Assembly (NCBI RefSeq): GCF_005435165.1
Contig: NZ_SGUC01000009.1
Location: forward strand, 1-64,000
Origin: Halorubrum sp. GN11_10-6_MGM
GTDB lineage: Archaea; Halobacteriota; Halobacteria; Halobacteriales; Haloferacaceae
Length of the DNA: 64,000 nucleotides
Direction of reading: 5' to 3'
Of this stretch, positions 8,377 to 54,135 are shown in pieces. The first letter of the stretch is position 1. Each line of letters opens with the position of its first letter. Below the pieces are notes generated by a model. The model saw only the letters and a list, made by a program, of their open reading frames with translations, searched no databases and had not been told where the DNA came from. Made by a program: the position numbers and the translations under genes.

Positions 8377-8661
8377 ATGGGAATCCCGGCGGAGCGGATC
8401 GAGCGGCTGTTCGCGCTCGCCCGCGAGGCGGTCGTCGACGACGAGTACGACCGGGGGCGCGAGTACGTCGCCCGCGCCCGCCGGGTCGCCGAGCGCAACC
8501 GCTGCGGCGTTCCGGCCGAACTCTCCAGGCGCGCCTGCGACGACTGCGCCGTCTACCTCCGCCCCGGGAAGACGAGTCGCGTCCGGACGCGCCCCGGGCG
8601 CGTCGTCGTCCGCTGTACCGAGTGCGGGGCGACCGCGCGGTACCCGTACGGCGAGGAGTAG
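8377..8661 (+). CDS. rnp4: RNase P protein subunit Rpp21/Rnp4
   Basis: A 94-residue subunit of archaeal RNase P, which trims the 5' leader of tRNA precursors. An N-terminal helical pair (residues 1-45, RIERLFALAREAV and VARARRVAERN) precedes a zinc ribbon with Cys54, Cys57, Cys80 and Cys83. The basic segment PGKTSRVRTRPGRVVVRC between the Cys pairs is typical. An ataacaacc TATA-like element at about 8338-8346 is upstream. Length and motifs fit the archaeal family well. Confidence 0.85.
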   Translation: MGIPAERIERLFALAREAVVDDEYDRGREYVARARRVAERNRCGVPAELSRRACDDCAVYLRPGKTSRVRTRPGRVVVRCTECGATARYPYGEE

Positions 8662-8753
8662 CGAGGGCGAGAGGTAGCGAGAGCGAGGGCTGACTGCGAG
8701 GAAGAGGGCTGACTGCGATGGAGAAGTCCAACTGCGGCGGAGCCGGTTCGGGA

Positions 8754-9437
8754 CTACTCGGCCCGCTCGCGAAGTTCGTCGAGGACGGAGACCGTTCCGT
8801 CCATGAACCCCTCCGCGACCACTACGTCTGCCGCCTCTCGGGCGGCGGCGTCCGCGTTGGCGACGGCGTACGACTCGCCGGCGACGCCGAACGTCGAGAC
8901 GTCGTTCTCGCTGTCGCCGATCGCGACGAAGTCGTCGGTGGCGAGGCCGAGGGCGTCGGCGACGACGCCGAGCGCCCGGCCCTTGCTCACGCCCGTCGAC
9001 TTGACGTGGTAGGCGTAGCCGGTGTCGACGACCTCCACGTCGCCGCCGGCGGCCGCGGCGACCTCGCGCAGGAGCGTCACGTCCGCGTCGGGCGAGAGCG
9101 CGACCTCCGTCTCGCGCCAGCGGTTCACCGTGTCGCCCTCGCCCCAGCCGACCTCGCCGCCGCGCTCGCGGAACGCCTCGACGACGGCCCACGCGGCGTC
9201 CGGGTCGCCGACGATTGCGGTCTCGCCGTCGACGTACGCGACGCCACCGTTCTCCGCTATCACCGTCTCCTCGCGGCCGAGGAAGTGCGCGAGCGCGACC
9301 GGGTACGGGAACGCCTTCCCGGTGGCGAAGGCGACCGGCGCGTCCCACGCGGGCAGTAGCTCGAAGACTCGCGGGTCGATCCGGCCGGTCGGCGTCGTGA
9401 GGGTGCCGTCGATGTCGAGCGCGAGGGGCGGAACCAT
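8754..9437 (-). CDS. Phosphoglycolate phosphatase, archaeal HAD type
   Basis: A HAD-superfamily phosphatase of 227 residues hydrolysing phosphoglycolate or a related small phosphate ester. Motif I is DIDGT (8-12), motif II FATGKAFP near 38-45, the catalytic Lys lies in YHVKSTGVSKG, and motif IV is GDSENDVS (about 173-180). The mid cap region and length match archaeal type IIB PGPases. The gene is isolated; the 92 bases before it hold a short duplicated gagggctgactgcga repeat and no gene. Confidence 0.82.
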   Translation of the reverse strand: MVPPLALDIDGTLTTPTGRIDPRVFELLPAWDAPVAFATGKAFPYPVALAHFLGREETVIAENGGVAYVDGETAIVGDPDAAWAVVEAFRERGGEVGWGEGDTVNRWRETEVALSPDADVTLLREVAAAAGGDVEVVDTGYAYHVKSTGVSKGRALGVVADALGLATDDFVAIGDSENDVSTFGVAGESYAVANADAAAREAADVVVAEGFMDGTVSVLDELRERAE

Positions 9438-50554: not shown

Positions 50555-50704
50555 TTACTCCAGATCGCTACCGCGGAACAGCGTCAGTTCCTCGGCCTCG
50601 TAGATGTTGATGAGTTCGGTGACGATCTCGTCGTACTCCTCGTCGTCGACCCGGAGCGCGTCGAGCCGTTCGACCGTCTCCTCGTCGAGGTGGATCTGGG
50701 GCAT
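50555..50704 (-). CDS. Small ribbon-helix-like conserved protein
   Basis: A 49-residue protein MPQIHLDEETVERLDALRVDDEEYDEIVTELINIY..., the beta strand plus two helices of antitoxin/ribbon-helix-helix proteins. An AT-rich TATA (attttttattcc, minus strand, 50728-50739) supports leaderless start 50704. No toxin gene is adjacent, so an antitoxin role is doubtful; it may be a DNA-binding regulator. Confidence 0.6.
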   Translation of the reverse strand: MPQIHLDEETVERLDALRVDDEEYDEIVTELINIYEAEELTLFRGSDLE

Positions 50705-50802: not shown

Positions 50803-53016
50803 TCAGTTGTGGTACTCAGACCTGCCGCGGAGTTCGGTCGATTCGTCGGCATCGGCTTCGTCGGTCGCGAGCGCCTTCCGGGCCGATTCTTCAACCTCTT
50901 CGACCGTAAGATCGACATTCGGCGGTACGAACCGACCGTTGAGGAACAGCGTAGTGTCGGGTTCGGTCGACCAATCGGCCATCACTTCGGAAGAGATGGT
51001 CGGTCGGTCCGTTGGGTCGCGTCCGACGAGCCGGGTCTTATCGTCGAAGCAGTCGTAAACGATCTGATACTCCGTCCCGAGCCACGAAGCCGGTGAAAGC
51101 ACCATTCGCCAGGTGACCCGGTGTTGCGACTCCGAGACCGACTCAGCGAAGACGAGCCTCGGCGTCGGAGGATTCGGAGGCATCACGTTGGCCGAGCAGT
51201 TCCCCGCGAAGCGGACCGGAGGGTGACTGGGAAGCCGTAGCACTGCGAGGGTCGTGTCGAGCGGGAGGCCTTCCGCGGCGAGCAGTTCGATCGCCGTTCG
51301 AATCTGATCCGCTGGGATGTGACCGTCAATCACCGCGGCACCGGTGCCGCCGCGGCGGACCGCGTCGACAGCGACGGCGGGACGTGGGCTTCGCTCGAAG
51401 ATGCTAACGGCCGGAGCCGGTCGTCCGTCTGCCGTCGGGTAACGAGGGAGATCGTGCGCGACCGGTGAACCTTCGTCGAAAGGAAGATCAGTGTACAGCA
51501 GGTCGACCGACGAGTCCGACAACACGTCCGCGACGGTGTCTGCGGTCGGCGTTCCGAGAATCGAGAGCGACCCGACGCCGACGGGAGGCGACGGCCTCGT
51601 GAGCGCCTCGCGCAGTCGCTTCGCTCGCTCCTCGGATCGGATGAGGAGGGTAACATTCGCTTCTCCGGCGTTCGGGGGCGTCCGCCGAAGCTCGTGTTCG
51701 TACGCCGCGGGTAGCGCCGCAGCGGTCCACTCCGGTATCGGATCCGGGGTGGGTACCGAGCCGCCTTCGTGGGAGGAAAGCAATTGATTGCGGGTCGGCC
51801 GGTCCGCCGTCGTGATCCCGACCGGATCCCCCGAGCGAATCCCCTCGGCGGAGCCACGGACTCGAACCGGCGCGAGCACGCGGGCGAGGTGCGGCAGGAG
51901 TTCCGCCCCTTCGGGGCCGGGGCGGAGTACAGCTTCCATCGCCCAATCGGGAGCATACGGCTCGACGATCCCCGGGTCGACCTCCAGAAATTCCATCAGC
52001 CGTTCGCTCAGCGAGAGACCGTCTAGGTTCGGCGGGTAAAACGGCAGTTGCGGGCCGACTTGTTCGTACTCTTCCCTGTCGGAGATCAGGTACCCGTCGG
52101 TCCGAACGAGCGTGTCGAGGAAGAACCACGTCCGCAGCAGCTCTAGAGCTCGTTCTTCGAGTTCGCGACCGTCTGTGGGAAGCCGCTCCGTGTAGCCGGT
52201 GTCGAGTCGGACGGCCGGTACCTCCCCCACCGTCATCGGCGCACCGAGGTAGTAGGCAAGCGTCGAGAGCCGGTACACGTCGGCGTAGGTCGGTCGGACG
52301 ACGACCTCGACGCCCGTATCGGGGACGGTCAACGGGCTCGGGATATCGAGCGACTCCCCTCGGCGAATGCGGGGCGGGTACCCTCGTAGCGTTGGCCAAG
52401 AGCGCTCCGCGGAAAACTCTCTGATGGATGATCCTAGCATCGACACCGCCTCTGCGAGGGATTCCGGGTCGTCCGGGACGGTAATTGTCGCCTCCGGACG
52501 GGTATGGAGCGAGCGGGCACCGAGGGAGACGGTCGCCGGACGATCAAGCGATAGTTCGACCGACTGGGGTCCCACAACTCCGCTGACCGACAGCTCCGCG
52601 TCTTCGATCCTAACGGTCGACTTCATTGGGCCCGTGATCTCGATACAGTACGATCCCAGTGGGAACTCCGTCGAGTCATTCGGGCGCTCGATGAACTCGC
52701 CCTCGCCATCGCGCACGACGATCGACGTGTACTCCGGGACAATGAGTGACTTCGCCTCGAAACTGACGGCGTTGTCGACCGGAGAGGGGAACAGCGCCGG
52801 GAGCGCCGGTGAGAGCTCCGGTTCGCGGTCGACGCGGAACTCCATCTGCTCGCTCTCGATCACGTCGCGGACGCCGAGCGTCGTCCCGTCGACCCCGAAC
52901 TCTATACGTCCATCAGTTGACTCATCGTTCACTGAACCGTTCTGGTTCGCCAACACGTATGAAGTTGACGCCAATCGCCATAGTTCGGAACGCTGAATCG
53001 TGCTGGCTGTCGTCAC
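50803..53016 (-). CDS. Large haloarchaeal protein with possible degenerate CHAT domain
   Basis: 737 residues from GTG at 53016, placed about 30 nt after a TATA-like gttaagatta (53043-53052). There is no signal and no clear membrane segment. The N-terminal 200 residues look beta-rich (repeated VELSLDRPATVSLGA-type strands). The middle (about 225-430) has PPRIRRGESLDIP, YRLSTLAYYLGAPM and TWFFLDTLVRTDGYL. The C-terminal part (about 430-640) has VDLLYTDLPF and DAVRRGGTGAAVIDGHIP, a layout like CHAT/caspase-like domains I recall in haloarchaeal proteins, but without the catalytic His and Cys. Base composition is less GC-rich than neighbours. Function unknown. Confidence 0.7.
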   Translation of the reverse strand: MTTASTIQRSELWRLASTSYVLANQNGSVNDESTDGRIEFGVDGTTLGVRDVIESEQMEFRVDREPELSPALPALFPSPVDNAVSFEAKSLIVPEYTSIVVRDGEGEFIERPNDSTEFPLGSYCIEITGPMKSTVRIEDAELSVSGVVGPQSVELSLDRPATVSLGARSLHTRPEATITVPDDPESLAEAVSMLGSSIREFSAERSWPTLRGYPPRIRRGESLDIPSPLTVPDTGVEVVVRPTYADVYRLSTLAYYLGAPMTVGEVPAVRLDTGYTERLPTDGRELEERALELLRTWFFLDTLVRTDGYLISDREEYEQVGPQLPFYPPNLDGLSLSERLMEFLEVDPGIVEPYAPDWAMEAVLRPGPEGAELLPHLARVLAPVRVRGSAEGIRSGDPVGITTADRPTRNQLLSSHEGGSVPTPDPIPEWTAAALPAAYEHELRRTPPNAGEANVTLLIRSEERAKRLREALTRPSPPVGVGSLSILGTPTADTVADVLSDSSVDLLYTDLPFDEGSPVAHDLPRYPTADGRPAPAVSIFERSPRPAVAVDAVRRGGTGAAVIDGHIPADQIRTAIELLAAEGLPLDTTLAVLRLPSHPPVRFAGNCSANVMPPNPPTPRLVFAESVSESQHRVTWRMVLSPASWLGTEYQIVYDCFDDKTRLVGRDPTDRPTISSEVMADWSTEPDTTLFLNGRFVPPNVDLTVEEVEESARKALATDEADADESTELRGRSEYHN

Positions 53017-53076
53017 GAGACACGAGAGAGCGTCCCTGACAATAATCTTAACATCGATCGAACCGGACGTGAACGC
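53017..53076. promoter_or_regulatory. Shared bidirectional promoter
   Basis: A single AT-rich element (aataatcttaaca, 53041-53053) lies 30 nt from the GTG at 53016 on the minus strand and 31 nt from the ATG at 53077 on the plus strand. Both messages would be leaderless, possibly from one symmetric TATA site. Confidence 0.55.
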
Positions 53077-54135
53077 ATGGACGGCGCCGAATCGGAGCCG
53101 ATCAAGCGCGCCCTCGACGCGGCGTTTCCGGACCGAACAGTCGATCGACTGACCGGCGTCGGCCCCTCCTGGAACGGCGCCAACGAGACGGTCGGCGTGG
53201 TCTTCGCCGACGGTGACCGGGCGTTCCTCAAGATCGCGCTCGCGGACGAGAGCCATCGGCTCCGCCGTGAGCGCGCCGTGCTTCGGTACGTTCGAGCGCA
53301 CGGCCCGCTGTCGGTCCCCGAGGTCCTCGCGGCCGACCCCGGGGGTGACCCCTCGTACCTCGCGACGGCGCCGGCGCCGGGTCGCGGTCTCCTCGGAGCC
53401 TACGAGGCGGCGAGCGACGGGGTGCGCGAACGCCTGCTCCGACGCGTCGGGAGCGCACTCGCCGCGCTCCACGCCGATCGCTTCGAGAGCCACGGGGAGA
53501 TTGTCGGCGCCGGAACCGTGACCGGAACGGCCGTAGCGGGGGGCACTACGGCCGGCGGCGAGGGGGCGCCGACCGGGCTCTCGATCGAGTCCGCACCGTG
53601 GTCGGACGTGCTGCTCGCGACGATCGAGCGGACCCGGGAGATCGGCACCTCCGAGCGGCTCGCGGACCACTACGACGCCGTGATCGACTGCGTTCGAGAC
53701 AACCGAGGGCTGCTCGACGACGCGCCGGCGGCGCTGCTTCACGGCGACGTCACCAAGCCGAACCTCTTCGTGACGACCGCGGAAGGGGCTCCGGCGGCGG
53801 CAGCTTCCGGCGAGGCCGGGGTCGCGGCGATCGACTGGGAGCTCTCCCACGTCGGCGACCCGGCGCGGGACCTCGTCCGCGCGGAGGACCAGCTGCTCAA
53901 CAGCTTCGACTCGACCGGGCCGGAGCGGTTCGCCGCGGCGCTCCGGGCCGGCTACCGCGATCGCGCCGGCGGGCTCCCGGAGGGGTTCGAGCGCCGCCGC
54001 CCGGTGTACGAGGTCGTTAGAATGCTCGGGCGCTCGGGGTTCGTCGATCAGTGGACGACGTACCTCGACGAGCCGATCGACTCGCTCGTCGAGCGCGCCG
54101 ACGCGGAGCTACGGGCGCGGCTCGACGCGGTCTGA
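53077..54135 (+). CDS. APH/fructosamine-kinase family phosphotransferase
   Basis: A 352-residue kinase of the aminoglycoside-phosphotransferase superfamily. It has a nucleotide-binding N-lobe (FADGDRAFLKIAL with Lys), the catalytic HGDVTKPNLF (His222, Asp224) and the metal-binding DWE (Asp253, Glu255). An Ala/Gly-rich low-complexity insert (about 150-170) is seen. Relatives phosphorylate ketosamines, choline or antibiotics; substrate cannot be told. It diverges from the 737-residue gene, whose product may act with it. Confidence 0.82.
   Translation: MDGAESEPIKRALDAAFPDRTVDRLTGVGPSWNGANETVGVVFADGDRAFLKIALADESHRLRRERAVLRYVRAHGPLSVPEVLAADPGGDPSYLATAPAPGRGLLGAYEAASDGVRERLLRRVGSALAALHADRFESHGEIVGAGTVTGTAVAGGTTAGGEGAPTGLSIESAPWSDVLLATIERTREIGTSERLADHYDAVIDCVRDNRGLLDDAPAALLHGDVTKPNLFVTTAEGAPAAAASGEAGVAAIDWELSHVGDPARDLVRAEDQLLNSFDSTGPERFAAALRAGYRDRAGGLPEGFERRRPVYEVVRMLGRSGFVDQWTTYLDEPIDSLVERADAELRARLDAV

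Follow-up and report, generated by a model that had tools for sequence, protein, structure and literature searches.

A haloarchaeal CHAT homologue that has lost its catalytic dyad, and the exchange of its C-terminal half between Halorubrum species

Why would a haloarchaeon retain a caspase-like protein that is devoid of catalytic residues? The question is raised by a gene in a 64,000-nucleotide stretch of DNA from Halorubrum sp. GN11_10-6_MGM (positions 1 to 64,000 of contig NZ_SGUC01000009.1, assembly GCF_005435165.1; hereafter the window), for which an original prediction proposed a 737-residue protein with a possible inactive CHAT domain, encoded at 50803-53016. The end at 50803 and the minus strand hold, while the start does not: relatives carry stop codons within the first 28 codons and have a conserved GTG start equivalent to V29 of the longer ORF, and for these reasons we placed the start at that codon, 84 bp inside the predicted ORF (Table 1). 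The motifs quoted in support of the prediction (LAYYLGAP, WFFLDTL, VDLLYTDLPF and RRGGTGAAVIDG) are all read in the minus-strand ORF, and the GC content of the gene is indeed lower than that of its neighbours (0.61-0.69 versus about 0.70-0.80 nearby). The single promoter envisaged for the gene and the divergent kinase is conjectural, the 144-bp intergenic region having separate A/T-rich candidates for each gene: the TATA-like TTCATACG on the minus strand, about 25-30 nt before the GTG of the pseudo-CHAT gene, and AATAATCTTA before the ATG of the kinase. In leaderless haloarchaeal transcripts a TATA-like box is expected ~25-30 nt before the start, and the spacing of TTCATACG to the GTG thus matches the expectation for such a transcript. 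Throughout, copies bearing the His-Cys dyad are termed live, their activity being one that we infer from the dyad, and copies without it are termed dead.

Table 1. Features of the pseudo-CHAT gene, its neighbours and the peptide beside the live paralogue (positions in the window unless a contig is named)
Feature	Coordinates	Strand	Remarks
Whole gene, pseudo-CHAT protein	50803..52932	-	GTG start, 709 aa; orthologues in 43/52 genomes of the genus
Conserved chassis, residues 1-375	51808..52932	-	71% mean within-genus identity; AlphaFold2 model; common to live CHAT branch
Motif ERSWPTLRG, residues 176-184	52381..52407	-	Common to dead and live branches
Linker, residues 376-394	51751..51807	-	Usual start of the cassette exchange; pLDDT under 50 at 380-390
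Dead CHAT (caspase-like) domain, residues 395-587	51172..51750	-	hhalign of C halves; VIA-align
Pro484 (CCT) at catalytic His position	51481..51483	-	Alignment to live copies
Ser515 (AGC) at catalytic Cys position	51388..51390	-	Alignment to live copies
C-terminal extension, residues 588-709	50806..51171	-	Most variable part; exchanged together with dead CHAT domain
Divergent intergenic region, gene/kinase	52933..53076	.	Relatives have stops here
APH-family kinase	53077..54135	+	PF01636, E 1e-17; divergent neighbour conserved within genus
49-aa ORF MPQIHLDEETVERLD..., downstream neighbour	50555..50704	-	Conserved in genus; outside the cassette
DUF7503 peptide	G000:C135:24580-24702	+	Beside live CHAT (-)

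A CHAT homologue without the catalytic dyad

The pseudo-CHAT protein matches no family in Pfam, NCBIfam or PADLOC. A scan of contigs with the single window protein as query likewise gave no match, and a search of whole genomes was required. The presence of orthologues in 43 of the 52 genomes of the genus rules out a chance ORF. Its ancestry emerges from a live-type paralogue in the same genome (G000:C135:24705-26867, minus strand), which has an intact dyad in the motifs HYIGHVDDRG and LLNACQSY, corresponding to the His and Cys motifs of CHAT, and touches PF12770; its closest relatives are from Halorubrum species. While PF12770 is matched by 13 of 20 live relatives (best 6e-7), neither the window protein nor 52 relatives of the dead branch show a direct match to it. 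Nevertheless, a comparison of whole-protein profiles aligns the dead branch with the live one over 661 columns (E 2e-112), and the C halves alone are matched by hhalign with a probability of 99.8 (E 6e-28). A literature search on haloarchaeal CHAT proteins found no paper.

The structural comparison agrees with this ancestry. The original prediction had staked its case on a caspase-like fold in the C-terminal half, and the AlphaFold2 model of the window protein (pLDDT 89, pTM 0.89) has such a fold: with VIA-align, roughly residues 345-587 match separase (Z 10.8), gingipain (9.4), Csx29/TPR-CHAT (9.1) and SAVED-CHAT (9.0), with the unrelated entries that follow the CHAT and separase matches scoring about 7 or less. 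Sequence profile searches against the PDB recovered no convincing relative of the pseudo-CHAT protein; some were found by the fold comparison only. The anti-sigma factor DdvA (8rot, 8rw5) also matches the dead CHAT domain, over residues 345-577 with Z 10.4; a literature search on DdvA found no paper.

The absence of the catalytic residues, as originally predicted, is borne out by alignment to the live paralogue of the same genome, in which Pro484 and Ser515 take the places of His and Cys. A comparison with relatives that keep both residues, which the prediction had recommended, extends this beyond the window protein: the dyad is present in 34/34 live copies and missing from all 53 sampled members of the dead branch. 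Specifically, the His position holds His in none of 54 dead copies and Pro in 42 of them, whereas the Cys position retains Cys in just one of the 54, never together with His. A tree of the N half separates 55 dead rows from 20 live rows on one fully supported branch; upon addition of 15 loci, 53 dead copies stay in one clade and one long-branched dead copy lies among the live ones. The catalytic dyad was lost once, in the ancestor of the dead branch, a conclusion that holds for 53 copies, with the direction of change in this unrooted tree (loss, not gain) resting on the dyad being a shared feature of CHAT proteins generally, and with the dead copies from outside the genus, picked by similarity to the window protein, being a sample rather than a census. 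The dead copy L106 (G101:C1:783000-791000), which keeps HYVG without the catalytic His and Cys, is found among live copies and probably represents a second, independent loss of the dyad; a single dead clade including L106 is not rejected (AU p 0.14).

Although homologous to CHAT, the window protein is no CHAT peptidase but a pseudo-protease: it is the paralogue of a CHAT protease widespread in haloarchaea, has lost the dyad and has been kept as a folded, non-enzymatic protein.

Unequal histories of the two halves in Halorubrum

In the AlphaFold2 model the chassis consists of a beta-sandwich at about residues 10-142 followed by an alpha/beta region, and within it the columns E176, R177, S178, P180, R183 and G184 are invariant or nearly so in the alignments of both branches. 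Beyond residue 360 few invariant residues are seen in the dead branch. Mean within-genus identity of the dead copies falls from 71% in the N half to 42% in the CHAT domain and 32% in the extension, whereas the live copies, which serve as a control, show the opposite, with 88% in the N half and 93% in CHAT. Hence, no part of the live protein is better conserved than the CHAT core, which is among the most variable parts of the dead one. Pairwise dN/dS is about 0.1 in both halves of the live branch; in the dead branch the N half has about 0.2 and the CHAT half about 0.4, a value showing that the dead half is still under constraint.

Comparison of closely related species shows that the dead half has been replaced. 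Across 14 kb, G206 and G201 are 80-95% identical nearly throughout, while the 3' half of the gene is about 50-60% identical. A survey of 52 close pairs found this pattern in G206/G201, G176/G006, G293/G224, G065 versus its sisters and G292 versus its sisters: the front halves are 87-91% identical and the flanks conserved, with the C halves at about 45-65%. Both the upstream and the downstream flank are conserved in G293/G224, G065/G300, G292/G193 and G176/G006, and the downstream flank of the exchanged pairs is 82-92% identical. The identity breaks are sharp, occurring at residue ~376 in three of five pairs, at about 361 in one and at about 316 in another; the usual break adjoins the low-confidence linker of the model (residues 380-390). 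An assembly artefact was rejected as the cause of these differences, given that G206, G201 and G065 carry the gene on contigs of 2.7-3.5 Mb.

Synonymous sites tell the same story. In the exchanged pairs dS is 0.24-0.43 in the N half versus 1.0-2.1 in the C half, while unexchanged pairs, among them that of the window species and G147, have the same dS in the two halves. In AU tests the clades of the N half are rejected by the C half (p 6e-4 and 4e-6; the third test, on G206+G201 alone, gives 0.056); these p-values are indicative, since the groups were tested once the pattern had already been noticed. We conclude that the dead half has been swapped as a cassette repeatedly, in independent lineages, between Halorubrum species. 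In the few close pairs of other families no exchange was seen.

This pattern bears on the notion that the gene is a relaxed remnant, of which only the N half works, with ordinary homologous recombination replacing the weakly constrained C half to no functional effect. The higher dN/dS of the C half (about 0.4 vs 0.2) and the paucity of invariant residues after 360 would fit such a remnant, as would the two of the 43 genus copies that look frameshifted (L025/L067 in G006 and L030 in G072; 568 and 595 aa), reflecting either decay or assembly error. However, relaxed constraint cannot cause a difference in dS between the halves, since synonymous sites are affected, and their unequal synonymous divergence needs separate histories. 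Moreover, the C half retains its length, a confident fold and, even when alleles are compared, a dN far lower than dS, and the breaks recur near the domain boundary in independent lineages. We therefore regard a remnant as improbable.

A conserved N-terminal part joined to an exchanged C-terminal part also recalls polymorphic toxins, of which this is a hallmark (PMC3482391), with the C half here being the toxic module. Yet the protein matches no toxin family, the fold of its C half is that of a degenerate CHAT, and no conspicuous hydrophobic segment was noted. An immunity gene, which a toxin would require, is not co-exchanged with the cassette, as the downstream flank and the 49-aa ORF are conserved in the exchanged pairs. 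We regard a toxin as highly improbable.

The cassette-wise exchange of the dead CHAT half in Halorubrum is new. Inactive caspase-like domains are already known; what is distinct here is a separate dead branch kept across a genus, in which the dead domain itself is the part diversified by exchange. Recombination is common in Halorubrum and affects many loci (PMC3990103, PMC11078007), so that exchange by itself is no proof of a role in recognition.

The live paralogue and the gene neighbourhoods

The comparison also exposes dyad-intact CHAT proteases, widespread in haloarchaea, whose tail is hypervariable and to which a membrane peptide is linked. For most of the Halorubrum pairs compared, the last 88 or so residues of the live paralogue (about 632-721) show ~50% nucleotide identity, while in the same pairs the core reaches about 90% or higher and the downstream flank is conserved. 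The tail has a GC of 0.43 and a GC3 of 0.43 as against 0.71 and 0.94 in the core. These tails (L157-L186) are hypervariable and exchanged, with saturated synonymous sites and a conserved protein motif, PNGPYG...W. AT-rich tails of live CHAT recur in several genera; Haloplanus and one Halorubrum clade differ in that their tails are mostly inherited. Accordingly, a general hypervariability of the live tail, not seen in Haloplanus, was discarded in favour of a lineage-dependent one. A search with a profile of live tails found no silent tail cassettes in the own genome.

The linked peptide, DUF7503 (PF24335), is a 42-residue hydrophobic (membrane) peptide encoded convergently to the stop of live CHAT, usually within about 130 bp. 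In 16/16 genomes with this peptide it lies beside live CHAT and only there; it is present at 71 of 78 named live loci (nearly all directly adjoining CHAT; L199-L276) and at none of 60 dead loci. It is a candidate substrate or effector of live CHAT. A literature search on DUF7503 found no paper. A DUF7504 (PF24336) gene lies directly upstream of, or divergent from, four live CHAT copies (L081, L084, L085 and L087). At L085, from the genus Haloplanus and without DUF7503, a tandem-repeat ORF (8383-8949, minus strand; TADGNSGGISGP) occupies the same place, convergent to live CHAT.

The divergent pairing of the dead gene with an APH kinase, noted in the original prediction, is confirmed, and a survey of homologous neighbourhoods finds the kinase beside the gene in most loci of the genus; the association does not extend to other families, whose neighbourhoods differ. 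The kinase is syntenic with the gene at the genus level without being a conserved partner, and no partner of the dead gene is conserved across families. There is no PADLOC match that would indicate a defence context, the inspected neighbours being housekeeping or unrelated genes, and a search of viral contigs found no relatives of the dead or the live branch. About 30 of the 43 genus genomes have the 49-aa ORF downstream of the gene, and the ORF is conserved despite the exchange of the C half. In tandem pairs of dead copies within one genome (L035, L045, L047 and L048) the N half is more alike than the C half.

A dead homologue of a dyad-bearing enzyme in the same cell, homologous to it from end to end and sharing its invariant N-half motif, might be a cFLIP-like regulator that dampens or licenses the live CHAT paralogue, either by pairing with it or by competing for its activator through the common N half, with the variation of the C half being secondary. 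A pseudo-caspase CHAT1 and an active CHAT2 do occur together in one chain in Csx29 (PMC10028731), and within the genus the dead gene is found almost only alongside the live one (42/43 genomes, a count confounded by incomplete genomes). This co-occurrence is, however, weakened by the live protein being near-universal, and in other genera several of the genomes sampled carry a live gene but no dead one. Furthermore, a CHAT pairing interface should be conserved, yet this is the most variable half. On these grounds we consider such a regulator rather unlikely.

A possible receptor and the closest known systems

The reading that we tentatively prefer, with a confidence somewhat short of even, is that the pseudo-protease serves as an intracellular receptor in which a recognition half diversifies on a conserved chassis. 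A conserved chassis coupled to an exchanged, folded and non-catalytic half fits a receptor that tracks a changing ligand, and the exchange, set beside the stable front half and neighbours, is suggestive of a module for recognition and not of an enzyme in decay. The original prediction envisaged a sensor or scaffold, either of which a pseudo-protease may be; the cassette exchange favours recognition over a scaffold. The dead CHAT domain and tail behave as a replaceable cassette on the N-terminal chassis, swapped between species via homologous recombination that may be anchored in the N half and the downstream gene. In such a receptor the variable dead CHAT groove and tail might bind a fast-changing ligand, e.g. 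a viral protein or a self/non-self marker, while the N half, common to the live paralogue, could connect ligand binding with the same pathway, possibly through contact with the partners of the live CHAT protease or competition for them. The diversified dead domain would thereby mark a binding surface under changing demands, for which the exchanged pairs give a concrete list of alleles.

A broader and more speculative proposition, which we deem doubtful, is that of a haloarchaeal polymorphic recognition family on the CHAT chassis, comprising live proteases with exchangeable AT-rich tails and dead sisters with the protease half turned into a variable receptor, with the convergent DUF7503 as possible substrate or effector. 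If true, live and dead CHAT together would constitute an archaeal innate-immune or self/non-self system, and the CHAT family would supply a gene for archaeal caspase-like activity. Such activity has been reported in Haloferax volcanii, with archaea said to lack gene homologues (PMC3615174), and live haloarchaeal CHAT is a candidate for its source. Live CHAT genes are present in Haloferax (loci L268 and L269).

The nearest known relatives of the window protein are the live haloarchaeal CHAT proteins (the G000:C135 paralogue and its relatives), which share the N half with ERS[WF]PTLRG, the domain order and the homologous C half. Unlike the dead protein, they keep the dyad in H[YF][IV]GH and N[AG]C, have the CHAT core as their most conserved part with only the last 88 or so residues varying, and are usually convergent to DUF7503. 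Separase, whose protease region is the top fold match of the C half, is by contrast an active protease, and the window protein has no sequence-level match to PDB entries. Csx29/TPR-CHAT of Craspase has the same caspase/separase-like fold and offers a precedent for an inactive CHAT (PMC10028731), but its dead and live CHAT domains share one chain bound to Cas7-11 (PMC10028731), whereas the pseudo-CHAT protein is encoded by a separate gene, lacks TPR and has no CRISPR neighbour. Sensors diversified by DGRs, with CHAT or trypsin effectors, resemble it in being CHAT-related, in having a diversifying part and in their proposed sensor role (PMC10907252); they differ in that diversity there arises from adenine-directed point mutation in a lectin domain (PMC10907252), while in the window gene it comes from allelic exchange in which the whole C half changes, synonymous sites included. 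Closest in the mode of variation are the homeocassettes of Halorubrum ezzemoulense, mutually exclusive divergent alleles at one locus for which a swap through the conserved surroundings has been proposed (PMC11078007). The homeocassettes are islands of whole genes (PMC11078007), whereas here only half of a single protein is exchanged, and the edge of the exchanged unit lies close to a domain linker.
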